A stretch of 64,000 nucleotides of DNA from contig NZ_CP064786.1 in NCBI RefSeq assembly GCF_017094485.1, positions 806,001 through 870,000 of the forward strand. Reading direction: 5' to 3'. The stretch is from Natranaeroarchaeum sulfidigenes (GTDB lineage Archaea; Halobacteriota; Halobacteria; Halobacteriales; Natronoarchaeaceae). Below, piece by piece: positions 48,852 through 49,032 of this stretch (within the stretch, counting starts at the first letter, position 1; each line of letters begins with the position of its first letter). The notes under the pieces are model-generated. The model saw nothing but the letters and a program-made list of their open reading frames with translations. It ran no database searches and had not been told where the DNA came from. The translations under genes were made by a program, and so were the position numbers.

Positions 48852-48926
48852 GCTCCGTTGGTGTAGTCCGGCCAATCATTTCGGCCTTTCGAGCCGATGA
48901 CCTGGGTTCAAATCCCAGACGGAGCA
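48852..48926 (+). tRNA. tRNA-Glu (UUC)
   Basis: 75 nt on the plus strand including discriminator A. Acceptor arms GCTCCGT and ACGGAGC pair over seven bases; the anticodon loop CTTTCGA is closed by CGGC/GCCG, giving anticodon TTC. The T-arm is CTGGGTTCAAATCCCAG. No intron, no encoded CCA. A gtttaag element at about 48799 could be its promoter. A 23-bp copy of its 3' end lies 104 bases downstream. Confidence 0.93.
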
Positions 48927-49032
48927 CTACAGCGAACGCAGTGAGCGAAGCGCGCACGTTCTGGGATTTGAACTACGCAAACGCGAGCGAAGCGAGCGTT
49001 TGCATTCGAGTTCAAATCCCAGACGGAGCACT
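48906..49032 (+). repeat. Alternating copies of the tRNA-Glu T-arm separated by GAGCGAAGCG cores
   Basis: Copy 1 is the tRNA 3' end (48906-48928). A core rich in GCGAACGCAGTGAGCGAAGCG follows (about 48930-48953). Copy 2 is inverted: tctgggatttgaact, 48960-48974. A second core, GCGAGCGAAGCGAGCG, lies near 48982-48997, flanked by gcaaacgc (48977-48984) and its inverse gcgtttgc (48996-49003). Copy 3 is direct (49009-49032) and repeats 23 bases of copy 1 at offset 104. Copies 2 and 3 pair over 15 bp into a large hairpin. It can be read as a residual att-like duplication or as fold-back template switching. Confidence 0.85.

Follow-up and report, generated by a model that had tools for sequence, protein, structure and literature searches.

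The gene for tRNA-Glu(UUC) of Natranaeroarchaeum sulfidigenes is followed by a 104-bp block in which the 3′ end of the tRNA recurs once inverted and once direct. We consider this block, with a probability of about one half, as a member of a haloarchaea-wide class of gene-less units, ~100-150 bp in length, that spread through site-specific recombination at the 3′ ends of tRNAs. The block lies in a window of 64,000 nt (the whole stretch analysed; contig NZ_CP064786.1, positions 806,001 to 870,000) of the 3.04-Mb chromosome. The units of this class have a common architecture and match their own tRNA, are exactly present or absent or replaced by one another between genomes, share hairpins in which the pairing is kept and, in one case, have the same ends as an integrase element. 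Since similar inserts stand behind about half of the tRNAs and are cleanly gained or lost between sister species, we considered them as a genome-wide miniature mobile unit and not as a one-off accident.

The tRNA-Glu unit and its counterparts behind other tRNAs

The host gene occupies positions 48852 to 48926 or 48927 of the window on the forward strand (ARAGORN; Rfam RF00005, 59.4 bits). Its own 3′ end, from the T-loop to the discriminator base plus CT (D1, 48906-48928), is identical at 23 of 23 positions to a direct copy downstream (D2, 49010-49032, forward strand), the two copies being spaced 104 bp. The complete unit (48927-49030, forward strand) consists of hairpin A, an inverted segment (I), hairpin B and D2; it ends at the discriminator base, and the 23-bp repeat runs two bases further (CT). 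The linker with hairpin A (48929-48959, forward strand) carries a mirror-type loop, GAACGCAGTGAG (motif match at 48934-48945). Segment I (48960-48974, reverse strand) is the T-loop and the 3′ strand of the T-stem in inverted orientation, complementary to 49009-49023 (15/15) and also to 48906-48919 (14/14). In hairpin B (48975-49008, forward strand), obtained by folding and by motif match, 48977-48984 pairs with 48996-49003 around the loop GAGCGAAGCGA. The GAGCGAAGCG cores at 48944-48953 and 48985-48994 form hairpins, with mirror-like loops before (GAACGCAGTGAG) and after (GAGCGAAGCGAG) the inverted copy. An earlier note on this DNA had described the direct, inverted, direct order, the att-like (attachment-site-like) outer copies, the palindrome-like cores and the complementarity of the inverted copy to the tRNA T-arm, and all of this was confirmed. 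Folding of the 199-nt tRNA-Glu stretch gave z = -5.7, with 0 shuffles equally good; the tRNA was the sole match in an Rfam search of this stretch, the unit itself belonging to no known RNA family.

For the search behind other tRNAs we used 44 tRNAs of the source genome (RF00005), 43 of a sister species and, from a second genus in the family, 45 and 43 of two species. Precisely, we looked for 11-mers of each tRNA's own acceptor end within 300 nt downstream, and as controls we considered the flanks of the other tRNAs and the upstream flanks. Such 11-mers were found behind 21/44, 25/43, 25/45 and 18/43 tRNAs, respectively, against a mean of 0-0.1 when tRNAs were set against each other's flanks and 0 in the upstream ones, so that about half of the tRNAs in each genome are without a unit. 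The inverted segment was found behind 21, 25, 17 and 17 tRNAs, with ~5.5 expected by chance because T-loops resemble each other. A DNA similarity search with the tRNA-Glu locus likewise retrieved other tRNA flanks in the source genome and in the sister species. The tRNA-Glu block is not a single case, 18-25 tRNAs in each genome being followed by such units.

The 96 units of the four genomes are 99-154 nt in length (median 120, D included), with an interior between the repeats of ~80-130 bp. D corresponds to tRNA positions about 52-73, i.e. the last 21-24 nt of the host tRNA. The two borders of a unit carry the 3′ end of the tRNA as direct repeats, and the host tRNA is left intact by the insert because D rebuilds its 3′ end. 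Units may be in tandem, for instance behind tRNA-Phe, Leu(UAA), Arg(CCU) and His. An intron-bearing tRNA-Met(CAU) at ~2047.8 kb, with the T-loop TTCGGAGC, was missed by the RF00005 search and by the Rfam gathering cut-off; it is followed by two units that match its own unusual T-loop.

Nearly every tRNA of the source genome has a single counterpart in the sister species. The units behind tRNA-Gly(CCC) (104 bp), tRNA-His (116 bp) and tRNA-Leu(UAA) (116 bp) are present in the source genome only, and that behind tRNA-Cys (100 bp) in the sister species only. Presence or absence is exact, and the junctions of all four filled and empty sites end at the discriminator base. The earlier note had judged ~80 bases between the copies too little for an element, and this view is contradicted by the exact gain or loss of units of the same size at these four tRNAs. 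At some other tRNA pairs a different unit was found at the same tRNA, with D and I alike. We did not find an empty site for the tRNA-Glu unit in the sister species, whose tRNA-Glu is filled. In the same comparison, the units of tRNA-Leu(UAG) and the tail following them are identical in the two species, while most other flanks have diverged; either recent transfer or strong constraint could account for this.

To evaluate the spread of the class we used a strict hairpin pattern, GGATTTGAAC-N25-50-GTTCAAATCC, and its reverse as a control. The pattern occurs in 42 of 98 genomes of the order, belonging to 28 of 42 genera, and the reversed control gave 0 throughout. Among the matches listed in a scan of GTDB genomes, most belonged to named Halobacteria, including Halorubrum, Haloarcula, Natronococcus, Haloferax, Halorientalis and Halosimplex. 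Among the 130 matches listed in named genomes, 95 stand behind a tRNA on the same strand (median gap 62 nt), 73 of these having a D of at least 16 nt, from 25 tRNA species. The matches listed in Bifidobacterium and some other bacteria either had no adjacent tRNA or were inside a tRNA. None of seven matches in viral contigs was a haloarchaeal unit with a tRNA.

Other repeats were seen around tRNAs of the source genome. A second type of insert, without I and ~50-60 bp in length (ATCGACTCCGTCGATCGTAGTTCGCAAACAAACCGCGTTTGCTCACTCC), splits D at ATCCC(G), contains GTAG and resembles repetitive extragenic palindromic (REP) elements; it occurs in the flanks of tRNA-Asp, Arg(UCU), Gly(UCC) and Ala(CGC), and a relative of it forms three repeats with a 75-bp period behind Arg(UCU). 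The tRNA-Glu linker with hairpin A has a 38-bp near copy (92%) at chromosome position 2363478, in an unannotated GC-rich region; this copy is retained in the sister species and has no Rfam match. Partial copies of the 3′ half of tRNA-Glu(CUC) (30-47 bp) lie at 1549286-1549332 and 1670450-1670479, ~88 and 210 kb from the gene, and are likely att sites of larger integrated elements.

Hairpins, strand bias and the tRNA-Tyr element

Within the units, I pairs with D across the T-loop and part of the 3′ strand of the T-stem. Where the T-stem strands can be told apart, I agrees with the complement of 61-65 at 27 positions and with that of 49-53 at 5; these counts rule out that I derives from the 5′ strand of the T-stem in a copied T-arm. 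The hairpins are shared between tRNAs, since 7 clusters of hairpin A and 14 of hairpin B span at least two tRNAs, and 14 of the 19 multi-member A clusters are linked with more than one B. In one class of hairpin B (n = 24) the internal loop is invariant (GTCGCA, GACCGTC) and the stems vary on both sides, with 98.6% of the cells paired and two-sided changes in 7 of 13 pairs. The cells with two-sided changes were 46, against 12.6 in shuffled and 0-11 in slid controls, and the score was 0.373 against 0.138 in the shuffled ones.

The mirror loops are oriented with respect to the tRNA, the sense to antisense ratio being 88:15 in the four genomes (p = 1e-13) and 51:1 among the named units listed. 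The tRNA-sense strand also folds better than its complement in most of the 96 units (83 with RNA energies, 69 with the DNA setting). Because the mirror loops are strand-biased, the folding is too, and pairs change on both sides, one-strand folding matters for the units, as DNA or as RNA. The scarcity of wobble pairs in hairpin B (2.9%) was discarded as proof of pairing at the DNA level, canonical tRNA stems being equally poor in them (3.5%), and so wobble content does not separate a DNA role from an RNA role.

In the whole source genome there are 43 mirror-loop motifs, and many of those inspected away from tRNAs had no strong surrounding hairpin; an Rfam search of other mirror-loop loci matched nothing. 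A protein-coding gene at ~335.9-336.2 kb has its 3′ end (~73 bp) tandemly repeated, with mirror-loop hairpins between the copies, an event of the same style as the tRNA units.

Behind tRNA-Tyr of the source genome the units are 4.8 kb distant from the tRNA, with a 4,774-bp element between, whereas in the sister species a unit stands directly behind tRNA-Tyr without the element. The tRNA end is repeated directly (22 bp) on either side of the element, whose own ends resemble the neighbouring 135-bp unit (first 20 bp 90% and last 102 bp 96% identical). Adjoining D the element encodes a tyrosine integrase (PF00589, 2e-9; PHROG integrase, 3e-25), for which the closest relatives among sequenced viruses are those of HHPV4 and SNJ2 (48%). 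Att-type recombination at these tRNA ends therefore happens. The units themselves encode no integrase, this being encoded only in the tRNA-Tyr element. Relatives of the integrase were found in 208 of 243 genomes of the order; most of the best 30 have a copy of a tRNA end (at least 20/23) within 280 nt upstream, mainly of tRNA-Phe, Tyr, Ile and Arg, and at several of these 30 loci hairpins are inserted just before GGTTCAAATCC.

Proposed recombination at tRNA ends and its alternatives

In the mechanism that we propose, site-specific recombination at the 3′ end of the tRNA would both insert and remove units, with D and the tRNA acting as att sites. We infer that the recombinase would be supplied in trans, possibly by a tyrosine integrase that belongs to the SNJ2/pleolipovirus family or is related to it. 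The match of I and D to the host tRNA could arise if a unit recombined solely at its own tRNA, or if I were corrected against D after insertion. Hairpin cassettes may be swapped between tRNAs through the common T-loop sequence.

Several observations weigh against propagation by recombination. A clean loss could also result from homologous recombination between the 22-bp repeats, so that the filled and empty sites may reflect either gain or loss. Strand-biased folding (88:15) is unexpected for a plain double-stranded att site. The action of an integrase on the units, and with it the link to a recombinase, is itself inferred. Among the best 30 integrase loci, none outside the units has a clear I (best 9/14), so that I is a feature of the units and not of every integrase element. 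The tRNA-Tyr element could have captured its ends from a unit array. Also, the published att sites of pleolipoproviruses are 13-15 nt in length and 3′ of the integrase (PMC7911831), unlike D. In the attP regions of known pleolipoviruses that we examined there were 13-15 nt of tRNA and no I.

The asymmetry between strands could instead mean that the units act as RNA. In this case the unit would be a 3′ trailer of the tRNA, in which I, hairpin B and D fold into the likeness of a T-arm and its acceptor strand, a structure that modulates termination, cleavage by RNase Z or turnover. The earlier note had also suggested that a transcript might compete with folding or 3′ processing of the tRNA. The units are always downstream and on the tRNA strand, their mirror loops and better folding are on the sense strand and hairpin B is kept by two-sided changes, as such a role would have it. 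Against it, half of the tRNAs have no unit, a given tRNA may have a whole unit in one sister species that the other lacks, a T-run follows the tRNA directly in the empty site of tRNA-Cys, and a trailer could do without the exact copy of the acceptor in D. We retain this role, as an unlikely one, in view of the better folding of the tRNA-sense strand. Passive DNA mechanics are also rather unlikely as the whole explanation. Here units would originate when a strand snaps back or switches template at the palindromic T-arm, slippage and gene conversion would make them spread and disappear, and near-palindrome correction would keep I as the complement of D. The direct, inverted, direct order suits this, as do the half-units common to tandem copies at tRNA-Phe, Arg-CCU and Ser-UGA and the mosaic tRNA-Glu units, which have their first 74 nt in common in the source and sister species and then, in the latter, another hairpin B and an extra half-unit. 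On their own, such processes leave unexplained that families of hairpins A and B recur from one tRNA to another and across genera, the strand bias and the precise insertion at the discriminator base behind many tRNAs; moreover, positions 66-73 are outside I, and hence D was not copied from I. The earlier note had proposed fold-back template switching, which as a single accident is disfavoured, since it fails to account for one architecture that is repeated at 18-25 tRNAs in each genome and for the hairpins common to different tRNAs; fold-back may help to keep I matched without explaining the whole class.

The least probable of these alternatives is that the repeats are plain att scars, i.e. 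remnants of ordinary integrated viruses or plasmids in which the hairpins are nothing special. The extent of D is that of att repeats and integrase elements do occur at tRNA-Tyr, Phe, Ile and Arg, but the length of the units is fixed (median 120, 99-154) and most of them have I and the hairpin families. According to the earlier note, an integrase-bearing element between the direct copies would reduce the tRNA-Glu block to such a scar. The exact 21-mer of the tRNA-Glu end is present in 52 of 195 genomes of the order, 14 of them with two or three copies; adjacent copies are always 67-246 bp apart and no larger element was found at tRNA-Glu in these 52 genomes. This part of the argument fails for tRNA-Glu and holds for tRNA-Tyr of the source genome, where an integrase element is indeed found.

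Comparison with known systems

Mobile units would rank with the smallest site-specific integrative units known, and would provide a natural archive, covering all Halobacteria, of recombination at the att sites of tRNAs; units acting as RNA would form a large class of tRNA trailers. In both cases the annotation of att sites, of the 3′ flanks of tRNAs and of the borders of proviruses in haloarchaea is affected, and the target-matched inverted arm poses a sharp and testable question of mechanism.

The attC sites of integrons are imperfect inverted repeats around an internal hairpin, recombined through folding of one strand and accumulated with gene cassettes in tandem arrays beside a fixed target; they have the core boxes RYYYAAC/GTTRRRY, and arrays grow at the target-proximal end. 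The units resemble them in the imperfect inverted repeat around a hairpin, the one-strand folding and the tandem arrays next to a fixed target. They differ in that TTTGAAC and GTTCAAA do not fit the core boxes and there are no gene cassettes. Species-specific extra units are not consistently nearest to the tRNA (~6 proximal and 4 distal differences, counted by eye), which gives no support to polarised growth. It is doubtful that the tRNAs serve as attI-like landing sites at which a tRNA-sense, attC-like hairpin (I, spacer, hairpin B, spacer, D) is recombined as single-stranded DNA, with arms rewritten for each tRNA and cassettes circulating across Halobacteria.

Elements with SNJ2-type tyrosine integrases and pleolipoproviruses (PMC8371274, PMC7911831) are alike in that such an integrase is encoded in the tRNA-Tyr element, the ends of which equal a unit; in contrast to them, the units are gene-less, carry an inverted T-arm and structured hairpins and have a D of 21-24 nt. 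REP elements, for which we found no haloarchaeal entry in the text of PMC12306157, are also short intergenic palindromes, but they are dispersed in intergenic DNA, are not tied to the 3′ ends of tRNAs and lack target-matched arms (PMC12306157, PMC3733652). The nearest transposase-free haloarchaeal elements are SMR-A and the palindrome-associated transposable elements (PATEs) of Haloquadratum (PMC3119063). SMR-A is ~110 bp in length, with inverted repeats, no transposase and a mobilisation that is unknown, and in these features, as in being haloarchaeal, it is similar to the units; however, it has a conserved sequence, makes no target duplication and targets palindromes of IS605-type elements (PMC3119063). 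The units instead rebuild and duplicate 21-24 nt of the target tRNA, have tRNA-specific arms and, unlike SMR-A or a miniature inverted-repeat transposable element, lack terminal inverted repeats, the I/D pair being internal and at the right end. PATEs, with the terminal palindromes of IS605-type elements, share with the units palindromes near the ends and the absence of coding sequence; they leave the target unduplicated, and a tie to tRNAs is not among their described features (PMC3119063), while the units duplicate 21-24 nt of the tRNA. No description of units at tRNA tails was found in the open-access literature searched, a scope outside which most subscription papers fall. Given this, and since SMR-A and PATEs have neither target duplication nor tRNA specificity, the units look like a previously undescribed form of tRNA-targeted integrative element.
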